A stretch of 28,369 nucleotides of DNA from a virus. Under the pieces are notes generated by a model. The model ran no database searches, was not told the origin of the DNA, and worked only from the letters and a program-made list of their open reading frames with translations. A program made the translations under genes and the position numbers. Shown here piece after piece: positions 12,291-28,031 of the stretch (position 1 is the first letter of the stretch; each line of letters opens with the position of its first letter). Location: IMG/VR virus record IMGVR_UViG_3300005936_000292, positions 1-28,369 of that record, one strand, 5' to 3'.

Positions 12291-15200
12291 ATGGCAATAA
12301 ATTGGAAAAAATTTGCGAGTCCAACAGGTGGAACAGAAAATTCTAGTGGTATGGATTGGAAGAAGTTTGGAACTCCAGCACCCTCTGTGCCACAACCAAC
12401 AGTATCAGAAGTTCCAGCTCCAACGCCACCAGTAGAACCAAAGAAAGACTATCCTTTTGGGCAGGGTTCTTTTCTAAAAAAGGCTCGTGATTTTGTTTCT
12501 CTTTTGCCTAGCTCTTTCAATATTCTAAGAGACGAACTAGCTACTGCTTATCAAGAAACACCCGTATTTGGAGTACAAGCAACTTATTCACCGAAGTCGA
12601 AAGACGACTTAGCTAAACTTCAAGAAGAACACAAAAAATCTAAACTGGGTAAATACACAGAGAGAGAACAAGCTGTTGTTCCTTCTGCTGTTAGTAGTAG
12701 AACACTTGGAATAATACCGAATAAGACACAACAACAAGCGAAGAAATTAACAGTAAAAACAACTGAACTTGATAAGAAAAGGACTGAAGTTGATGATTTA
12801 GGTAAGTATATGAGCAGCATCAAAGATACCGATACACAAAAGTATAATGATAATGTAGATAGTTTTAACAAAAAGGTAGAAGCTTATAACAAATCAGCAG
12901 AAAAAGTTAAAAAAGAATATGTTGCTTTTATGCTTTTGCCAGAGAACAAACACCCAAATTATGCTATGGCTGGGTCAGCCGTAGGAGGATTGATGGCTTT
13001 TGGAACTCTTGGAAAATTATTTCAACCATTAAATCTGTCTTCAAAAACTTCTAGTCTTTTCAGTAAAGGATATCAAGCACAGAAAGGTATTTTTAAGGGC
13101 GCACAAATATCTAGGGGAGCAGGCTCAATCGTAGCTAGTGTACCAATCTTTGCTACAGCTTCAACAATACACGAGGGTATGGAGCAATTATCAGACAATA
13201 AGTTTGACCCTAAAACATTATTTTCAGAAGCAGGTAAGGGAGTAGCTACCGGAACACTATTCGGAGCAGGAAAATCTTTTGCTACTCTTCCAGCAAGAGT
13301 AGCCTCTCAATTTATCAACTTCAGTAGTTGGAGTGCTTTAGATAGATACGCAGAAAACGGAGAGATATCAAAAGACGACATTATACCAATCTTAATAGAT
13401 GGAGGGCAGATGGCTTTGTTTGAACTAATATCAGGCAGAGCGATCACTAAGGCATACGAAACAAATAGAATGGGAGCTGTTACAGGAGAGCTTTCAAGGG
13501 GACACCTAGAAGCTAGAAACCCTAAATTATCTAAATTAGAAATTAGTAATCTTTCTGCTACTATTGGCAAAGCCAACGCTACATTATTTTATGCGAAAGA
13601 AGGATTGTTAAGAGCTAGGGTAGCCAAAGAAAGTCCAGAAGTTATCAGAATACTTGAAAATCAATACAAAGATTCTTTCAATCTTAACAATAAGTTGAAT
13701 GTAAAATATAATTATCTAGAAGGAAAAGATTATATCATAAAGAATAACGAAGTGAAGGTGTTGAACGAAGAAACAGGAAGGATTCAAGAAGGAAAACAAT
13801 TTCAAAATTTTGAAAATGGAATAAATTATAGAATTTATGAGGGTAAGATGTATCCTGTAGATATAGTCGATTCAACTGGCATAATACCACAAGGAACTGG
13901 AATGCCTAAGATCGGTAAGGGCGTAACAGCAGAAAACAAAGTGGTCCTTCCAAAAGAAGCAGAGAGCGTAACTGTAGCTAAGAAACCAGTAGAACCAACC
14001 AAACCAGTAATAACCCCAGATAAAGCCGCTACGATAAAGACTGCATTGACTGGCAAGACTCCAATCATTCCAAAAACAACAGGTGAAATAGTAGCAGGAA
14101 TAGCCAAGAAGACGGTAATTCCTACAATAGAAAAGACTCCAGTCAAAGAGATTGAAGAAAAAGCTAAGGCTGAAGTAGCATTAAACCCTAAAGATTTTGA
14201 ATTTGGAAAAATAACAACAGAAGACGCAGATAAGTTTATTGGTAAGACGTTTACTCAATCAACTAAGAGTCTTTCTGACGGAAATGAAGGATTTGTTATC
14301 AAGGGAGAAAGAGAGTTAAAAGTTATCTCACGAGATGGTAACGACTTTACTGTTAAAGATACAAAGACTGGAGAAGAAGAAACTTTTGACGCTTCACTAT
14401 TTATCGGGAATTTCAAGGGTGGAGATATGAAAGAAGTAAAGAAGCCAGTAGCACCGGAACTAAAGGGAAAAAAGATAACAGTAGAAAAGGGCGCATTATC
14501 TGATGTGCCTGTTTCTGATAGAAAAGGTAAGATTATAAAGAAAGGAGAAGGCGCTTACGACACAGACTCAAAAGTAAAATCAACAAAAAAAGAGTTTAAG
14601 ATAACACTTGAAAATGGAGAAGAAATAAATGTAGAATATGATGAAGATTTTGGAGTAAGGCACTTTGCGTTTATGACAGATGAGCCCAATTCCATTTCAA
14701 GGACAGGCTACAAGAGCCACTATGAGATGGATTATACATTACAAGGAATGACTCCAGAAAAATACGCAGTAGGACTAGGGAATGAGTTTGCTAAACAAGA
14801 ACTAAAGAATAGACCAAAAAGGAAGAAAAAACTTGACAAAGTTAAAAAACAAGAGGATAATAAGATTAAACCTAAAACTTATGGAAAACCAAGCGATAAC
14901 AATATCGGGAGTAGTGTTAAAAAAGATACACTTCCCAAAGCTATACAAGTGGGCGAAAAGCAACCCAGCGACACTGGAGGAGCAGTTGCAGTCGATAGCA
15001 AAGGCGTGGCACCAAGGAAGCGTAGTGTCAGCGGCAAACGCATTGGAGAGCGACTTGGAAAAGATGTAGGCAAGAAAGGACAAGCCGAGATAAACAAAAA
15101 AGTTAAAGAACTCTTAGCATTAAACAAAGCTAACGAAGACTATAGCGTTAGCGAGAAAGAACTTCTAGCACAATACTCCGGACTAGGAGGACTTGAAAGT

Positions 15201-18200
15201 ACAGGAGCTGAAGGACGAGGATTATTAGACGAATATTACACACCTAAAAAGGTTGTGGATTTGATTTGGAATAATATAAAAGATTTACTACCAGAGAATC
15301 CAAAGATAATAGAACCAGCAATAGGAACTGGAAACTTCTTAAAAGACGCTCCTAAAGGTTCAATCATTGAAGGATTTGAAATTGATAAGACTAGCGCAAA
15401 GATAGCACAGATATTATATCCAGACGCAAGTATTACAACAGACTCTTTTGAAAAGCTATTTATTGACGATAGAGGGAATAAGAAAACTCCTACAGCTTAT
15501 GCTGATTTAGTAATTGGAAACCCTCCATACGGAGAGCATAGGGGAATCTTCAAAGGATTAGGAGAAGAACCTAAGATAGCAAAATACGAAGAATACTTTA
15601 TAAAGCGATCACTTGATATAGCAAAAGAAGGAGGAATAGTTGCTATGGTAATTCCAAGTAGCTTCCTAAGAAATGGTAGCGATTATGCTAAACAACAAAT
15701 AGCAAAATCGGGTATATTGATTGACGCATATAGACTACCAAATTCTACATTTGATACTACTGACATTGGTACTGATGTTGTTATATTCAGAAAGACACCA
15801 TTGGTAGGAACTGATAGCACAGGAAGACTAGCAGAAACAGAAAGACTAAGGGAAATAACTAACAACACATATTTTGAATCAAATCCAGAGAAAATCCTAG
15901 GAATTGAAAAGGAAAGGAAAGGAAGGTTTGGTTTAGAGAAATATGTTGAAGCCTCAAAAGATATCACTATAGGAACTACTATAGATAAAGTAACATATAC
16001 TCCAGAAGAGAACGCAAAGATTACAGAGGTAGCAGACGCACAAGATGTTGGAGAGAGCAAATCAGACATTAAAGAGGCTTCTGATGGTATAAAGACAGAG
16101 ATTGAAAGTGGAGCTATAACAAAGCCAGAAGAGTTTGAAAAGAATTGGGAGAAGCCAGTCAATACCGTTACAAAGAAGCCTAAAGCAAAACTAGGAGCTA
16201 AAGTAGATAAACGAGTAACTATACCAACACCAAAGAAAACTAAAGGTATTCTTGATTTAGGACAATACTATAAACTACCAAAGGAAGAACTAGAAGCACT
16301 TACTGAGGTTGGCCCTACTGGAGAAGCAACACCAGAGCTTGTCAAAAAACTTACAGAAGAGAAAAAGGCAGAATATCTTAACAAATATAAAAATGAGTGG
16401 CAAAATAACTTTAATTACTTCTCAGGTGATATTCAGGAAAAATTGCTACAACTAGAGATAGATTTCCCAAAGGGAGGAGAGCAATATGATAAACAAAAGA
16501 AAGGTCTTTTGGCTTCATTACCAGAGAGATACGAAGTAGATCGTATATCTATTGCACCGAATACACCTTTTGCACAGACAAAGATTACTTATGACGGAGA
16601 GGAAAGGACATTAAGAGGCGCTTTCCTAGAGTTTTTAGATACATTACCACACTCAACTTTTGGCAAGACTTCCAGATGGGAGATAAGAGACTATGTTAAT
16701 GAACAGTCAGTCAGAGGTGGAGACAAAAAGAGAAACCAATCAGTCAGAGAAGCAAGAAGAGTAGTCGGTAACAAATTATTTTCACAGTTTTTAACAGAAG
16801 GACTAGAACCTTCTCAACAGAAGATTGTAGCTGATAAGTTCAACGACCAATACAACGGGTACGCAAGACCAGATTATAGAGAAGTGCCATTGGCCGGTAA
16901 GCTACACGATACTTTCAAAGGAAACCCATTAGAAATTAAAGACGTCCAATTACAGGGAGTCGGATTTTTAGTAAACAAAGGAGTAGGCTTGTTAGCCCAC
17001 GACGTTGGAGTTGGTAAGACAATGCAATTAGTTATAGCTATCAACGAGACAATAGCCCGTGGTTGGTCTAAAAAACCACTATTAGTTGTTCCCGGTGGAA
17101 ATGTTTACGGACAATGGATAAAAGAAATACAAGAATTATTACCTAATATAAAAATAAACTCTTTAGCTAATTTGGGAGGAGAGTTTAAGGGAGACTTAAA
17201 AACATTAGAGATAGAAGACGGCTCTATTACTATTTTATCTTATGAGGGATTAAAGAAACTAGGATTCAAAGACGAGACATACGCTAGTTTGACTAAGGAC
17301 TTGCAAGACGCAATAGGAGACCTAAACCCAAGTAAAACAGCTAGATCTAAAGCTAAAGAGATTACACAAGTTGAAGAGACTCTAGGCAAAGCTAAAAAAG
17401 GCACACAGACAGAGAACTTCTTTGAAGAGCTAGGTTTTGACTTGTTTGCTATGGACGAGGTACATAATGCAAACCACATAGTCAAAGGAGCTAAGTTAGC
17501 AGAGCAGGGCAAGGCAACAGAGTTCAGAGGCCTTACAGTAAGACCAAGCGATCTAGGGATAAAGACTTGGTTAGCTACTCAATACGTTCTAAAAAATAAC
17601 AATGGCAGAAATGTTTATCTAGCCAGCGCAACACCATTTACAAACAACCCAATGGAGTATTACTCAATACTTTCCTTAATGGCAAGAAGCAGATTAAAGA
17701 AAATGGGAATAGAAAATGTAAATGAGTTTATGAATACCTTTATGGATTTGACTGTAGAGGGAGAAGCAACGGCAGCAGGAAAATGGAAAGAGAGAAATAA
17801 CATAAGAGGATTCAAAAACTACCAACAGTTCCAGAAGCTTTTGACAGAGTTCATAGACTTTAGAGACGGAGCAGAAGCCGGAGTCAAAAGACCAAACAGA
17901 GTAACGAATACAACCGTACTAAAGCCAACAGCTTTACAAACAGAATTGACAGAAGAAGCACAAGAATTATTCACTCCAAAATTCCAGAATGAAGGTGGAA
18001 CAATGAAGGGAATTGGAGAGATGAGGCTAATAGCATACAGCCCGTACGCTTCTCACTATTACAAAGGCGCTCTACCAACCTACAAGCAGTTTGTTGAGAA
18101 CAGCCCTAAGATAAAGGCTATTGTAGATATGATAGTTCAGAATAGGAGCGACCAGAAAACTGCTAATCAAGTTATATATTCTACTATTGGAGTAACACAC

Positions 18201-21200
18201 TTTCCAATGATAAAAGAGTATCTTATCAGAGAGTCAGGATTCAAACCGGCAGAAGTAGGAATAATCACAGGAGCAGTAAACAAAAAACTTCGTGGAACAA
18301 TACAAGAGCAGTTTAATGAGGGGAAGATTAAAGTCTTGCTTGGTTCAGACGCTATCAAAGAAGGAGTAAATTTACAGGTGAAAACAACAGACTTGTATAT
18401 TGCTTCTTTGCCTTGGAACTTTACACAGGTAAAACAAGTTATTGGAAGAGTTTGGAGACAGGGTAACGAATGGAAGAACGTAAGAATACATAACGTATAT
18501 ATAGAGGACAGCATAGACGTATTTTCAGCACAGAAGATTGAGACAAAGCAAAAAAGATATGAGGAGTCGTTAAAATATAAAGGAGACTATTTAGATGTTG
18601 GAGATGTCAACTTTGAAGAGTTGAAACTAGACCTTATCAAAAGTGGGGTCAGAAGAGTTGAGATAGAAAAAGAAATAGAGAAAAAGAAACTAGAAAACGC
18701 AGTCGGAGAAGCCGAGTCAAACTTTGGATTCTACAGCAGAAAAGCACAGGAGATTAACAACCTTAAAGAAAGAACAGACAGGTATTTGGAATTGACTGAG
18801 CGTTATGAAAAGAGCGCGTTGGAAGACCCAGCTGATGAATACTACACAAGACAAGCTAAAGAGTATAGAGAAGATTATAACGATACACTAGCAAAATATG
18901 AGGAAGCTAAGACAGAAGCAGTAGAGCGTGGAGTTTTGGATATAGAAAAACTAGACTTATTATCAAATGAAGTTACCAAATCCAAAACAGAGCTTGAAGG
19001 ACTAGAAGAAAGATATGTGGAGAAGTTAGCTGAAGCCACAAAAGAAGAAGAAACTAGAGTAGCCACTACTGCAGGGAAGAATGATTTCAAAGACATAACA
19101 GACAAGATAGCAGAACAAAACAAAACTTTCTTTGAGAAAGCTCCAGCACTTGGCACTAAAACATCTGTAACAGAAAGCCCAACAAGTGATCCAGTTGAAA
19201 CTATTCAACAAGAAGAAAGTTTTAATGATTCAGAAGGGTCAGGTGATTCTGCTTTAGATGTAGAGAGAGACGAGAATATGGCAGCTGAAAGGGCAAAATG
19301 GAATATAAAAATGTCTAAGGAAGCCGAGACTGATAGTTTGATAAACAAAACAACTATAATGCAAAGGCTTGAGAAGATATATAACATACCTATCAAGAGC
19401 AAGGCTACATACAAGTGGGGTTCAGTCGTTGGTATGTTCTATCCAAAGAAGCAAATAATCAGAATGAAGAAATGGGGAGAGTTGGCAGTCGCAGCGCACG
19501 AAATTGCACACCACATAGACAGCACTCTATTAAAACTAGAAACAAAATGGAGAAAATCCACAAGAGCTATACAAAAAGAACTGGCTGATTTAGATTACAA
19601 TCAAAAGCAGAGAAGAACTAAAGAAGGGTTTGCCGAGTATATGAGATATTATTTAACAACTGATTTAGCAGAGAGCAAAGCTCCAGAGTTCACTAAGTTC
19701 TTTGAAGACTTTTTGACTAAAAATCCAGAGCTAAAGGGTAAGATAGTCGAAACTAAACAGATGTTTGATACTTGGAACAAGCAGGGAGCAGAGAATAGGT
19801 TTATACAACATATTGACTGGAAAGGGGAACATACAACCTTGCCCGGAGTAAGAAGAAAAGCTCAAAAAGCTATACAATGGATTCAGACAGAACTGAATGA
19901 CTCTCTTTATGTGCCAAGAAAAATAGAAAAAGAAATAGAGAAGATAATCGGTAGGAAGTTCAGACCAACAGAAAGCCCGACAGCTATGATGGAATTCTCA
20001 CAGTCAAAAGCAGGAGCTATAGCAAAAACATTTGTTATGGAAAAAGCCATTGATGAATTTGGAAACGTAGTTGGAAAGAGTTTAGCAGAAGTGTTAAAAC
20101 CTATTGCGAGGAAAGATATCAAATTCTTTGTAGCTTATGGAGTTGCAAAGAGAGTTATAAACCTAGAAGGCAGAGGAGTTGAAAGTGGATTTGATATGGA
20201 GGACGCAGAATATATTATTGAAAAGTATAAGGATAAAGGGTGGGATCCAGTAGTTGAAGACTTAACTACTTGGTCTAACAATATTATGGACTGGCTTACT
20301 AGGGCAGGTGGTTTGAGTGTAGAAAATACTCTAAGAATGAGAGAACTAAACCCAATATATTTGCCATTTAAGAGAGCTTTCTTAGATGACATAATGACTT
20401 CTATAAAGGGGTCTGGAGGTATAGTTAATACTGGAACAGGAATTAAAAAGATAAAAGGAAGTGGGAGAGCTATCATAAACCCTCTTGACTCTATGATTCA
20501 GTCAGTTACAGAGCTTATTGGTAGGGCTCAAAAATTACAGATTGCTAAGTTGTATGCGAATATAGCAGAGCAAGAAGGAGTAGGTGGATTTATAACAGAA
20601 GTTCCAGCTCCTACTAAAGCTACAACTTTCAACTCTTCACAAATACAAAGTTATATAGAAGAAATTACTGGAGAAGTCAGTACCTCAGAGTTAGACGATA
20701 TGCTAACAGTGTTTACGCAAGACAGTAAGTACAGTGGTAAAGACAATATCGTCTCTATATATAAGGACGGAAAACAAAAGTTCTATGAGATACACCCAGA
20801 CTTATACGAAGCGCTACAAAGTATTGAGCCGATGAAGCTTAATGGAGTAATGACAGTATTATCAAAGTTCTCAGGATTGTTAAGACTTGGAGCTACTGGA
20901 TTAAAGGCCTCTTTTGGACTTGTTAGAAACCCAGTCAGAGATGCACCGACTTATGCTGTATTCTCAAAGAGAAAAGGAGCAACTCCATTTGATATTGTAG
21001 GTGGAACGATTAAAGGCATAACAGCTAAAGAAGGAGAGCCTACTTGGAGATTCAAGCGACTTGGTGGAGCTATGTCCGGTCAGATAGGCTATGACAGAAA
21101 ATCTGCTATGTCCACTTTTGACGAAGTCTTGTTAAAGAGCGAAGGATTCAAAGGAAAAACCTTAATGGTTGTGAAACACCCAATAGACGCTTTAAGGAAT

Positions 21201-22295: not shown

Positions 22296-24672
22296 TAAAG
22301 AAAATCCACAAGAGCCACAAGACCCTAGTATCGGAGTAGAAGATTTACTTCTACACAACGAAGAAACCAGAAGAGACGTTCAGAATCTTAAAGAGACTGA
22401 GATTGTTCAGCGTTCCGAAAACCACCAAGAAGCTCAAACTATCAGAGAGGCAAGTCTTGAAGCGCTCTCAGAGATTAAAGGCTCAATAGACTCAATAGAC
22501 ACTTCTAAAGAGAAAGATAAAAATGAGGTCCAAAAGATTGAGATAGTTACGAAAGAAGATAAAGAAGATGGGAATGAATTGGCTACAGCTTTTTTCAAAA
22601 TGCTTAAAGGGAGAAAGGGAGAACAAGGAGAGAAAGGAGACTTTGCAAAAGGGATTGATGGAAAGACACCCGTCAAAGGCGTTGATTATTATACTGAAAA
22701 AGAAATAGAAAAGATTGCAAAAGATGTTTTGGCTCTTGTTACTATTTCAAAAAACAATAAGGACGCTATTGACTATACTAAAATTGCAAAAGATGTTTTG
22801 TCAGAAATGTCTAAAGATAAAACCAACAAATCTCTTACCTCAAAAGATGTTGTAAGGATTGTTGCTTCATTAAAAGGAAAGGATAAAATTTCTTATAATG
22901 ATTTGAAAGAGACTCCTACCATATTCAAACAGAAGGGAGGAATAGCCGGAGCAGGATATCTAAAAGACTTATCAGATGTTTCTATCTCTGGGCTTACCAA
23001 TGGAGAAGTATTGAAATGGAATAGCACAACCAACAAATTTGAGAACGGAGCAGGTTCTGGAGGAGTTTCAACTTTTATAGCTTTGACTGATGTATTTGAG
23101 ACTACTTATGTTGGCGAAACTGGAAACTCAGTAAGAGTTAATGCTGCAGAAACAGGCTTAGAATTTTATACTCCAGCCGGAGGCACAGACGAAAAAGTAG
23201 GAATAGATTCGGGTGCTACAGCAGGATATATTGGAGCTGGAGCAGGTGATGGCGTATTAAGGGTAGATTCTACTTTAGATTATGTTGATGGAGGAGACTA
23301 TGTAACTGTAGGATTAGACTCAACATTAAAATCAAACTATGACGCAGGATATTCTCACATTTCTAATAATGGTTCAGACCACAGCTATATAGACCAAAGC
23401 GTGGTTAGTGGAGCTACCCCAACATTTACAAACACAAACTTTACAGCTTCTACAGATAAAAATTATGTAACTGACGCAGAGTTGGTAGTGATCGGGAATA
23501 CTTCTGGGACTAACACAGGCGACCAGAGTTTAGCCGGATTAGTTACTACAGACCAAAGCACTCCACAGACAATAGGAGTAACTGGAGACAGGCTAACCAA
23601 ATTATGGGCTGTTGATATTACAGTAACGAATGCGATAGCAGGAGATATCACAGGAAACGCAGCAACAGTTACCACCATTACAGGATTAGCTCCAGACACA
23701 GCTACAACACAAGCTACACAGCCAAATATAACAAGTGCAGTGCTTTTACCTTGGACTGGATTAAAACCAGGGGTAGATGGAGAGATACCTACCTTTGACG
23801 CTTCAGGAGACCCAGCCTTTGTAGCTGTAGGAACAGCAGACCAAGTATTAACATCTAATGGAGTAGGAGCGGCCCCAACATTCCAAGACGCAACTGGAGG
23901 AGCTTCTCAATTATCTGAATTATCAGATGTTGTAAGTGCTACTAACACAGACAAGTTTGCTTTAATGGCTAACGGATCTACGGGATATGTAGGCAGGGCT
24001 TTAGTAGAAGCAGACATCTCAGATTTAGGAACTTACGCTGCTACAGACCAAACATTTTATATAGGTACTACTCAACTTGCTATTAATAGAGCGAGTGCGG
24101 CTTTGACATTAGCAGGACTTACATTGACTACTCCGAACATAGGAACACCGAGTGCTGGAACTCTTACCAGTTGTACAGGGTTGCCTTTAACTGGATTAGT
24201 AGATGATACTACAACAGCTTTAGGAGTCGGTACTTTAGAATTAGGACACGCCTCTGATACTACTCTTTCAAGAAGTGCGGCAGGAATATTGGCGGTGGAA
24301 GGAGTTGTAATTCCTTCTATAAGCTCAACAAACACTTTAACCAATAAAAGAATTACAGCAAGAGTTGCTACATTCTCTTCTGATGCTACACCAGATGTAG
24401 ATACAGATGATTATGACGCAGTAACTATTACAGCACAGGCCGCAGCAATCACTGATATGAACTTTACTGGAACGCCAACAAACTTCCAAAAGATTACAGT
24501 AAGAATAAAAGATAACGGAACTGCAAGAGCAATAACTTGGGGTTCAGATTTTGAAGCAAAGGGAATAGCTTTGCCCGTAACCACAGTAATATCAAAAGTA
24601 TTAACAGTTGGGTTTATATATGACACAGTAACCTCAAAATGGGGCTGTGTTGCTACAACCCAAGAAGTATAA
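22282..24672 (+). CDS. Tail fibre protein with collagen-like segment
   Basis: This 796-residue protein probably forms a trimeric receptor-binding fibre. Residues 1-105 are charged and helical (coiled coil). A short collagen-like stretch follows (GRKGEQGEKGD, then GKTPVKGVDYYTEKE, about 110-137), a common phage fibre hinge. The shaft is Gly/Thr/Ala-rich, with fibre phrases such as LSDVSISGLTNGEVLKWN, NTSGTNTGDQSL, and TLTNKR near the C-terminal domain. The last 100 residues form a beta-domain with ITDMNFTGTPTNFQKITVRIKD, seen in many phage fibres. The ATG lies inside the polyvalent gene (14-base overlap), so the two are probably translationally coupled. No enzymatic domain is seen. Confidence 0.85.
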   Translation: MVINNKENPQEPQDPSIGVEDLLLHNEETRRDVQNLKETEIVQRSENHQEAQTIREASLEALSEIKGSIDSIDTSKEKDKNEVQKIEIVTKEDKEDGNELATAFFKMLKGRKGEQGEKGDFAKGIDGKTPVKGVDYYTEKEIEKIAKDVLALVTISKNNKDAIDYTKIAKDVLSEMSKDKTNKSLTSKDVVRIVASLKGKDKISYNDLKETPTIFKQKGGIAGAGYLKDLSDVSISGLTNGEVLKWNSTTNKFENGAGSGGVSTFIALTDVFETTYVGETGNSVRVNAAETGLEFYTPAGGTDEKVGIDSGATAGYIGAGAGDGVLRVDSTLDYVDGGDYVTVGLDSTLKSNYDAGYSHISNNGSDHSYIDQSVVSGATPTFTNTNFTASTDKNYVTDAELVVIGNTSGTNTGDQSLAGLVTTDQSTPQTIGVTGDRLTKLWAVDITVTNAIAGDITGNAATVTTITGLAPDTATTQATQPNITSAVLLPWTGLKPGVDGEIPTFDASGDPAFVAVGTADQVLTSNGVGAAPTFQDATGGASQLSELSDVVSATNTDKFALMANGSTGYVGRALVEADISDLGTYAATDQTFYIGTTQLAINRASAALTLAGLTLTTPNIGTPSAGTLTSCTGLPLTGLVDDTTTALGVGTLELGHASDTTLSRSAAGILAVEGVVIPSISSTNTLTNKRITARVATFSSDATPDVDTDDYDAVTITAQAAAITDMNFTGTPTNFQKITVRIKDNGTARAITWGSDFEAKGIALPVTTVISKVLTVGFIYDTVTSKWGCVATTQEV

Positions 24673-26489: not shown

Positions 26490-26518
26490 TTGACATATTA
26501 TTTTATATATTAGATAAT
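26490..26518 (+). promoter_or_regulatory. Near-consensus sigma-70-type promoter
   Basis: A perfect -35 box, TTGACA (26490-26495), is followed by a 17-base AT-rich spacer and a -10 box, GATAAT (26513-26518), one base off TATAAT. Transcription would start at about 26525 and run into the structured leader and small-gene cassette. It is the only promoter of this quality I see in the window. Confidence 0.8.
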
Positions 26519-26524
26519 TAATTA

Positions 26525-26719
26525 AGAGACAGCACATTTATATAGTTGAGGGTTCTGCCATCTATCTTTGATAGGTGTCCTAGCGTCTCCCATACACCTT
26601 AATCGTTGGATTTTGCCGAATAAGTAAATAAGGCAAATATAATTTCTTAGGAGATTATCCATAAAACTTCCCGTGATTAGGTGGATGGCAGAGTTCCTTA
26701 ACAAATAGGAGTACGTATT
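26525..26719 (+). ncRNA. Structured leader RNA, candidate riboswitch-like or trans-acting RNA
   Basis: Between the promoter and the first cassette gene lies a roughly 195-base leader with a nested fold. TCTGCCATC (26554-26562) pairs with GATGGCAGA (26684-26692) as a nine-pair closing helix that can grow to about 14 pairs inward with wobbles. Inside it are AGGTGT/ACACCT (26573-26578 with 26594-26599) and TTTGCC/GGCAAA (26612-26617 with 26632-26637). CTCC in the first loop (26587-26590) could pair with GGAG (26650-26653) as a pseudoknot. CTATC/GATAG (26562-26566 with 26570-26574) is an alternative hairpin that competes with the inward extension. The SD (AGGAG, 26707-26711) lies just after the closing helix. 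No known family was recognised. Confidence 0.5.
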
Positions 26720-26893
26720 ATGGCTGCCGAAAGCATAATTGAGGAGGAAGTCTACATTGATGACAAAGAAGATTTAATGCTTCTGATTCACAAACTTCAC
26801 CACTTACTAAAAAAGGTGAACAGACGGAAACGTAGGATTGTCGTTATTTTCTTTGACGAGGAAGTTGAGAAATTTCCGAAAGGAGAGAGATGA
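26720..26893 (+). CDS. Unrecognised small protein, first of SD-driven cassette (57 aa)
   Basis: This 57-residue protein begins MAAESIIEEEVYIDD, with an acidic start, an amphipathic helix with repeated leucines and histidines (LIHKLHHLLKKV), a basic patch (NRRKRRIVV), and an acidic then basic end. The split into acidic and basic parts suggests a protein that binds another protein or a nucleic acid; I recognise no family. AGGAG sits eight bases before the ATG, unlike the structural genes. Its stop overlaps the ATG at 26890 of the next gene. It lies downstream of the strong promoter and structured leader, so its expression could be set by that RNA. Confidence 0.6.
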   Translation: MAAESIIEEEVYIDDKEDLMLLIHKLHHLLKKVNRRKRRIVVIFFDEEVEKFPKGER

Positions 26894-27120
26894 TGATTAA
26901 GGGATATTGTCACAAGAAGCGTAGGTTTATCGCAGACGGAAAAGTTGTTAGATATTGTTGTGTAAGGAACGAAAATTGTCCTTGTCAGCACCTACAACTT
27001 AAAAAAGTTGAAACCGACAGAAGGGAGGCTAATGATGGCAGAGGAAAACACGGGCAACGCAAAAGGCGTAGGAGAGAAAGACGAAGGCTTGCTGCTTTAC
27101 GAAATTCAAGCACCCGATAG
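26893..27120 (+). CDS. Unrecognised cysteine-rich basic small protein (75 aa)
   Basis: I do not recognise this 75-residue protein. The N-terminal 35 residues hold five cysteines (one near residue 6, then CCVRNENCPCQH), suggesting zinc binding. The C-terminus (about 45-75) is extremely basic, with KRRRRERRR, which would bind nucleic acid. It starts at a tandem ATGATG (26890/26893). GGAG at 26882-26885 gives better spacing to 26893. The first ATG overlaps the previous stop (ATGA). The last 86 bases overlap the next gene in another frame, so the arginine-rich tail may be either real or a by-product of that frame. Confidence 0.55.
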   Translation: MIKGYCHKKRRFIADGKVVRYCCVRNENCPCQHLQLKKVETDRREANDGRGKHGQRKRRRRERRRLAALRNSSTR

Positions 27121-27235
27121 TGCTAGACGTGAAGCCTTTCCAGTTATACTGGAACAGTACACCTACACTTGCGATAGCAAAGACCACGACTTAGTAGTCA
27201 GACTATTCGCAGTAGTACGGAAACGTACCACCTAA
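27035..27235 (+). CDS. Unrecognised small protein, third of cassette (66 aa)
   Basis: This 66-residue protein starts MAEENTGNAKGVGEKDEG, an acidic flexible head, followed by a compact part (LLLYEIQAPDSARREAFPVILEQYTYTCDSKDHDLVVRLFAVVRKRTT) with mixed strands and helix and one cysteine. No family is recognised. GGGAGG (27023-27028) lies six bases before ATG 27035; ATG 27032 is also possible, while a TTG at 27008 would place the SD inside the gene. It overlaps the previous gene by 86 bases in another frame. Use of a strong SD matches the other two cassette genes. It is followed by hairpins and then the lysin. Confidence 0.6.
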   Translation: MAEENTGNAKGVGEKDEGLLLYEIQAPDSARREAFPVILEQYTYTCDSKDHDLVVRLFAVVRKRTT

Positions 27236-27339: not shown

Positions 27340-27927
27340 ATGAAAAACATTTGCAAACCATTTATAGACGCAAAGCCGTGGAGTATATCACAGTCTTTTG
27401 GAGTGAACCCACAATCTTATCAACCTAACGGCCACGTTGGAGTTGACTTTGCCTATGCTAACGGGACCCCATTAGTAGCTCCTCAAGATGTTAAGGTTGT
27501 GAAGATAGTAGAAGACCTAAAATGGCAAGACCCTAAGTCAGAAGAGCTAGAGATGAGAAGAGGCTACGGGCTAGTTATGCAAGATTTAAGAGACACAACT
27601 ATATATTATGTTTACTGGCACTGCACAAACACTTTTCCGGTCAATGTAGGAGATATAGTAAAGCAGGGAGAATTAGTGGCCCTAATGAGTAACACGGGAT
27701 ATGTTATGTCAGCTGGAGTCTATGTGCCGATAGGAGAGAGATTCTTACCACCCTATATGGGAACCCATTTGCACTTTGAAATGTATAACTTAGTAAACGG
27801 AGTAAAGAACTATATAGATCCACTGCTACATATGAACTGGAGTATAGTACCAAAATACAGCGACAACATATTCAACAAGATGAGTTTAATGTTAAAGAAA
27901 ATGATTAAGGTTATTTTGTCGAAATGA
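27340..27927 (+). CDS. M23-family peptidoglycan endopeptidase (lysin)
   Basis: This 195-residue zinc endopeptidase should cut peptide cross-links of the cell wall at lysis or entry. The LytM/M23 motifs are intact: GHVGVD with H32 and D36, YWH with H94, and GTHLHFE with H143 and H145. H32, D36 and H145 are the expected zinc ligands, and H94 and H143 the expected catalytic histidines. There is no signal peptide or membrane helix, so it would need a holin to reach the wall. The last 30 residues are basic and helical (KMSLMLKKMIKVILSK), perhaps membrane-binding. The stop overlaps the ATG of a small membrane gene (ATGA). No wall-binding domain is present. Confidence 0.92.
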   Translation: MKNICKPFIDAKPWSISQSFGVNPQSYQPNGHVGVDFAYANGTPLVAPQDVKVVKIVEDLKWQDPKSEELEMRRGYGLVMQDLRDTTIYYVYWHCTNTFPVNVGDIVKQGELVALMSNTGYVMSAGVYVPIGERFLPPYMGTHLHFEMYNLVNGVKNYIDPLLHMNWSIVPKYSDNIFNKMSLMLKKMIKVILSK

Positions 27928-28031
27928 ACGGTATAGAGAGAGCCTGTCTAGCTTTCTTTGGAGCAATAATAGTAACGTATATAATAATTCCACTCTTTTA
28001 TAAAATAACTGGTTGGAATTATAATAAGTAA
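27924..28031 (+). CDS. Small single-span membrane protein (35 aa)
   Basis: This 35-residue protein starts at an ATG that overlaps the lysin stop (ATGA) and consists mainly of one hydrophobic helix (ACLAFFGAIIVTYIIIPLFY), with one cysteine and a short polar tail. Translational coupling to the lysin suggests a lysis accessory such as a pinholin-like or antiholin-like peptide; that is inference. It ends two bases before the next gene is read (TAAAATG). Confidence 0.55.
   Translation: MNGIERACLAFFGAIIVTYIIIPLFYKITGWNYNK

Follow-up and report, generated by a model that had tools for sequence, protein, structure and literature searches.

A putative 5' leader with a compensated closing helix and a variable core in the lysis region of a phage

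The locus and its genes

The window considered here, i.e. the whole stretch of DNA that was analysed, is a 28,369-bp phage record that encodes a terminase large subunit, an SU10-like portal protein and an M23 endolysin; the record does not include the early region of this phage. The locus of interest comprises the features listed below, for which the comparisons refer to L002, a part of the 47,201-bp (47.2-kb) phage record G001 that has a 115-bp end repeat and is represented by the pieces L013-L015.

26490-26518, + strand: sigma-70-type promoter, TTGACA-17-GATAAT, 11/12 match
26525-26544, + strand: 5' leader segment conserved by sequence identity to L002, GAGA.AG.ACATTTANATA, with the predicted transcript start near 26525
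26545-26567, + strand: 5' arm of the closing helix (outer 26545-26552, inner 26554-26567), from folding and the L002 comparison
26568-26678, + strand: variable core with three local hairpins (26573-26599, 26612-26637, 26639-26658), from folding
26679-26702, + strand: 3' arm of the closing helix (inner 26679-26692, outer 26695-26702), from folding and the L002 comparison
26703-26719, + strand: Shine-Dalgarno (SD) segment and spacer, AAATAGGAG, with CCTTAACAAATAGGAG identical in L002
26720-26893, + strand: ORF1, 57 aa, the first gene after the leader, 93% amino acid identity to L002
26890-27120, + strand: ORF2, 76 aa, with a Cys-containing N-terminal part and an Arg-rich helical C-terminus (low-confidence model)
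27035-27235, + strand: ORF3, 66 aa, overlapping ORF2 in a different frame, with a C-terminal part almost identical to that of L002
27266-27338, + strand: second structured element, GGGGAGATAT...ATATCTCCCC, 73 nt, 100% identical in L002 (L013 13157-13229)

The promoter reported in a first-pass annotation of this DNA is indeed present at 26490-26518, and a leader of about 195 nt, extending from about 26525 to the SD AGGAG at 26707-26711, is found where it had been placed, in the lysis region. Three sites on the + strand of the window reach 11/12, as compared to a mean of 0.6 in shuffles; since the other two fall inside coding sequence, such a match is, by itself, weak evidence. In L002, the -10 element is a perfect TATAAT, and the -35 element is poor and not conserved relative to the window. 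No terminator-like site was found between the leader and ORF1.

ORF1 matched no known family; 8 of its 174 bases differ from those of its L002 counterpart, and of the 7 codons affected, 3 carry silent changes. Neither ORF2 nor its Arg-rich tail gave a match in Pfam, PHROGs or a PDB sequence search, the solved N peptides included, and the AlphaFold models of ORF1 and ORF2 were too weak for a structure search. ORF2 and ORF3 are read in different frames within 26890-27235, and where they overlap, the relative shows conservation of both. The three-gene unit ends with the second structured element, which is located between ORF3 and the start of the M23 endolysin gene (region z -4.5); the 73 nt gave no match in an Rfam search, and a 10-codon ORF (MGRYATDYNV) can be read in them.

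The closing helix of the leader

The ends of the leader are joined by 22 base pairs, 8 outer (26545-26552/26695-26702) and 14 inner (26554-26567/26679-26692) ones, which thus contain, exactly in place, the shorter helix 26554-26562/26684-26692 proposed initially. In the isolated leader, the outer and inner pairs form with a probability above 0.9, except for the innermost pair of each segment. The energy of the closing duplex is -31.8 kcal/mol, a value reached by none of the 11,286 arm pairs taken from the window at the same spacing, and, in both phage records, no other long-range helix of the + strand matches the closing helix in strength. As had been claimed, the helix ends just before the SD, 4 nt upstream of AGGAG; the SD itself is only partly unpaired when the leader is folded in a longer context.

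Inside the helix, at least two hairpins had been expected, and three fold (26573-26578/26594-26599, 26612-26617/26632-26637 and 26639-26646/26651-26658). The suggested loop-loop contact 26585-26590/26650-26655 can be drawn, but it competes with the third hairpin and lacks comparative support. The leader as a whole folds only moderately better than its shuffles (z -2.5 to -2.7, with 1 of 200 shuffles equally good); it is the closing helix, not the overall fold, that is significant.

Comparison with the relative

Viral contigs were scanned for relatives with ORF1, ORF3, the M23 protein (alone and as an alignment), the upstream gene and three DNA patterns as queries. L002 was the sole record in these scans with relatives of the neighbouring genes, the other matches to the DNA patterns being due to chance; genome scans and the phage and plasmid collections yielded no usable relatives. 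The gene order in L002 is the same as in the window: upstream gene, leader, ORF1, ORF2, ORF3, the 73-nt hairpin element and endolysin. The leader of L002 (hereafter L1) folds at z -6.3 to -6.7 and is closed by 23 pairs (-34.1 kcal/mol) that end at the same place, 4 nt upstream of an identical SD.

The similarity between the two loci changes abruptly along the sequence. The identity is 87% over 26526-26555, i.e. the 5' segment and the outer arm, drops to 0-50%, about background, in the core, rises to 97% from the 3' outer arm to the end of ORF1, falls to ~40% across the first half of ORF2 and is again 87-100% through the end of ORF3, reaching 100% in the second hairpin element. The core, ~110 nt, cannot be aligned between the two phages, although ORF1 is 95% identical at the DNA level; hence, the core was probably replaced as a block, gradual drift to this extent being unlikely. 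Elsewhere in the window, the segments 23643-23903 and 14179-14423 show 80-89% DNA identity to G001 within otherwise dissimilar large structural genes, which suggests that the two phages exchanged DNA recently.

The outer arms of the closing helix are conserved in sequence, whereas the inner arms are wholly different, with pairing retained in each phage. When arms are swapped between the phages, the energy of the duplex is only -14.3 and -11.2 kcal/mol, as compared to the native -31.8 and -34.1 kcal/mol; for the inner arms alone, the respective values are -1.6/-3.7 (swapped) and -23.2/-17.4 kcal/mol (native), so that the residual energy of the swapped arms comes mostly from the conserved outer arms. 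Thus, the covarying pairs that had been named as a check on the closing helix are borne out by compensatory change in L002, the leader being known from two phages and the covariation resting on pairs of sequences.

Known RNA families and riboswitches

The claim that the leader matches no RNA family stands: the Rfam covariance search gave no match at the gathering threshold, and matches with E up to 10 were chance matches only. The leader had been described as the layout of a cis-regulator, riboswitch-like, or of a small RNA. A promoter-driven structured 5' leader is supported, and its closed fold next to the SD resembles that of metabolite riboswitches in Rfam; it differs from them in having no Rfam match and an unconserved core. 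A metabolite riboswitch requires a conserved aptamer core, and here the interior, where the aptamer would be located, is the unconserved part, which makes this identity unlikely.

A second leader in the relative

G001 contains a second promoter-driven leader (L2) on the - strand, at 20606-20383, with a perfect TTGACA-17-TATAAT promoter at 20639 and a closing helix of 20 pairs (z -6.6). The 5' ends of L1 and L2 share TATAATAGAGA...AAATAG...GAGGG, and both leaders contain a three-way junction made up of a base stem and two hairpins, the first of which has a GUCA loop and is followed by UAAUC. The 15 aligned pairs of the junction are all kept, 7 of them with changes on both sides; this pattern of compensation was equalled by 1 of 500 shuffles and by none of the slid versions, in a test that was not blind, since the likeness had been noticed first. 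In L1, an extended closing helix, better by 3 kcal/mol, is an alternative to the junction, so that L1 may, judging from these models, exist in two states. The letters CUGAUGA in L002 had brought a hammerhead ribozyme into consideration; they fall in the conserved hairpin and the junction stem, not in a hammerhead core, and this candidate was rejected.

A covariance model built from L1 and L2 (R1; GUCA-loop hairpin, UAAUC and junction stem) found no copy in the leader of the window, the core of which has no detectable three-way junction and holds only CCTTAATCG at 26597, a match that chance can produce; nor was a further copy found in the other loci examined. At 13262-13470, G001 has a third element (z -4.8) in which a closing helix is combined with a CGUCAG hairpin; its match to the model is no better than E 0.12. 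The initial statement that nothing else in the window resembles the leader is, therefore, correct for the window but incomplete, as the relative has not only a homologue of this leader but also other leaders with this layout.

A cis-acting leader and the alternatives

That pairing is retained while sequence is not, at a fixed position by an unchanged SD, speaks for the closing helix acting in cis, as RNA: a compensated structure adjoins the SD of the same gene, as is expected of a cis-acting structured leader. The recurrence of such leaders before two different operons, together with the adjacency to the SD, favours the same reading. We therefore lean, with moderate confidence, towards a cis-acting 5' leader in which a double-stranded clamp adjacent to the SD would hold an inner domain specific to the phage, with a protein as its probable binding partner. 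We infer that RNA polymerase would start near 26525 and that the first ~20 nt would remain single-stranded; the ~22-pair clamp would then join the leader ends and keep AAAUAGGAG open for ribosomes to load at ORF1, so that the SD would be either presented or protected. The clamp would hold out the multi-hairpin inner domain, different between the phages, which would most likely be bound by a protein of the phage or of the host, and this protein could set the expression or the stability of the ORF1-ORF2-ORF3 operon.

The main competitor of the cis-acting leader is, in part, contained in it. A stem of this kind might be just an RNase III processing site or an mRNA-stabilising structure, with ~22 double-stranded pairs before the SD that are either cut or left as a 5' shield, and with the core as mere filler; this amounts to a subset of the cis-acting reading, lacking a specific inner ligand, and we consider it possible but unlikely. 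The helices are long enough for an RNase III site, for which at least ~20 nearly continuous base pairs are expected: 22 pairs in the window and 23 in L002 are interrupted by small internal loops only, their pairing is conserved and their sequence is not, and further long stems are found at gene borders of G001 (32231-32399, z -3.4; 23726-23838, z -4.0). This explanation, however, leaves unaccounted for both the sequence conservation of the outer 8 pairs and the 5' segment and the conservation of the GUCA-loop/UAAUC junction between the two leaders of G001. The own promoter and the stable closed structure would also suit an independent non-coding RNA acting in trans, with ORF1 reached by read-through only, and the third element of G001 (13262-13470) does not lie directly against an SD and a gene start. 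Yet the terminator-like site before ORF1 is missing, the closing helix abuts the conserved SD in both phages, and the core, the expected location of a seed, is not conserved, which leaves a trans-acting RNA quite unlikely in our estimate. Finally, the inverted repeat could function at the DNA level, as a mobile cassette, a recombination site or an origin with exchangeable cargo, as might be suspected from the conserved outer arms around a replaced cargo and from the surrounding mosaic of 95-100% and ~40% identical blocks. We regard this as highly improbable: the inner arms differ and still pair in each phage, unlike the terminal repeats of one mobile element, no target-site duplication was seen, and the junction in G001 keeps its unpaired loop letters while the stems change in pairs.

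Returning to the cis-acting leader, the fact that the core is exchangeable speaks against a metabolite aptamer; the core would have either a phage-specific partner or no specific function. Of these, a partner is favoured by the finding that two leaders of the same phage carry one core, in which the stems are compensated and the loop letters are fixed. An inner function common to the two phages would be conjectural, the core of the window having no match to the junction of the relative. Since the Cys-containing half of ORF2 is swapped between the phages along with the RNA core, and its Arg-rich tail is predicted to be helical, ORF2 is, from this single comparison, a candidate nucleic-acid-binding protein and a possible partner of the core. 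One could further imagine a system of cognate pairs, in which a conserved clamp carries a phage-specific domain read by the partly swapped ORF2 and, within each phage, one protein coordinates early and lysis-region operons via the domain shared by several leaders; we deem this extension improbable.

To our knowledge, few structured leader RNAs have been described from uncultivated phages. Comparative support without an Rfam match, in a leader whose scaffold and genes are kept while the core is exchanged, is an unusual pattern, and the repetition of the relative's own core before another operon would make a phage-specific RNA-protein code directly testable.

Comparison with known phage systems

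The closest layout is that of pL-nutL-RNase III hairpin-N in phage lambda, where a phage promoter is followed by a long structured leader that ends near the SD of a small gene, and the homologous operons of P22 and 21 have leaders of different RNA specificity. ORF2 may bear some resemblance to P22 N, and the joint swapping of its Cys-containing half and the RNA core adds to the likeness. The differences are that the leader described here lies in the late lysis region, not in an early operon, that a 22-pair clamp surrounds it as a whole, and that ORF2 has no family match to N. In T7 and lambda mRNAs, stems are cut by RNase III or left as a 5' shield, and the T7 hairpins and 5' mRNA-stabilising stems are likewise long and located at phage gene borders; here, in contrast, the stem spans a folded core of 110 nt, and the core of the relative has a conserved motif of its own. 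The put elements of HK022 are structured RNAs that start more than one transcript of a phage, as L1 and L2 would in G001, but they are short, consist of two hairpins without a long closing helix and have been assigned a role in antitermination, which is not proposed here. The arginine-rich motif of the P22 N-boxB interaction is treated in PMC11480772. ORF2 is not recognisable by sequence as an N-like arginine-rich protein, and neither boxA nor boxB was recognised in the leader by eye or through an Rfam match.

Other structured elements of G001

Several further regions of G001 show local structure. On the - strand, a 412-nt intergenic region at 16640-17100 (L014 640-1100) contains ~4 degenerate hairpin copies of the TTTT..ACAGCTCCTTTATGGGGGTTGTGAT type (z -4.8), and at 27600-27940 (L014 11600-11940) a promoter-like site precedes a leader that shows long-range pairing and, ahead of the next ATG, a strong GC hairpin. 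The space between the large terminase and portal genes, at 32231-32399 (L015 231-399; z -3.4), is taken up by long stems. An element of ~165 nt at 29984-30148 (L014 13984-14148), closed by CACGGGGGT/ACCCCCGTG, with z about -2 and no Rfam match, lies just upstream of the TTGACA-17-TATAAT promoter of the presumed small-terminase gene and is, possibly, a packaging or leader element. The leader of a DnaD-like gene at 23726-23838 (L014 7726-7838), - strand, forms a hairpin of ~26 pairs (z -4.0) that is flanked by near-identical repeats, AAAAATCAAAAAAAT(T)ATG, and can be read as a 34-codon ORF; judging from the repeats, it looks as if the hairpin had been inserted and the start region duplicated.
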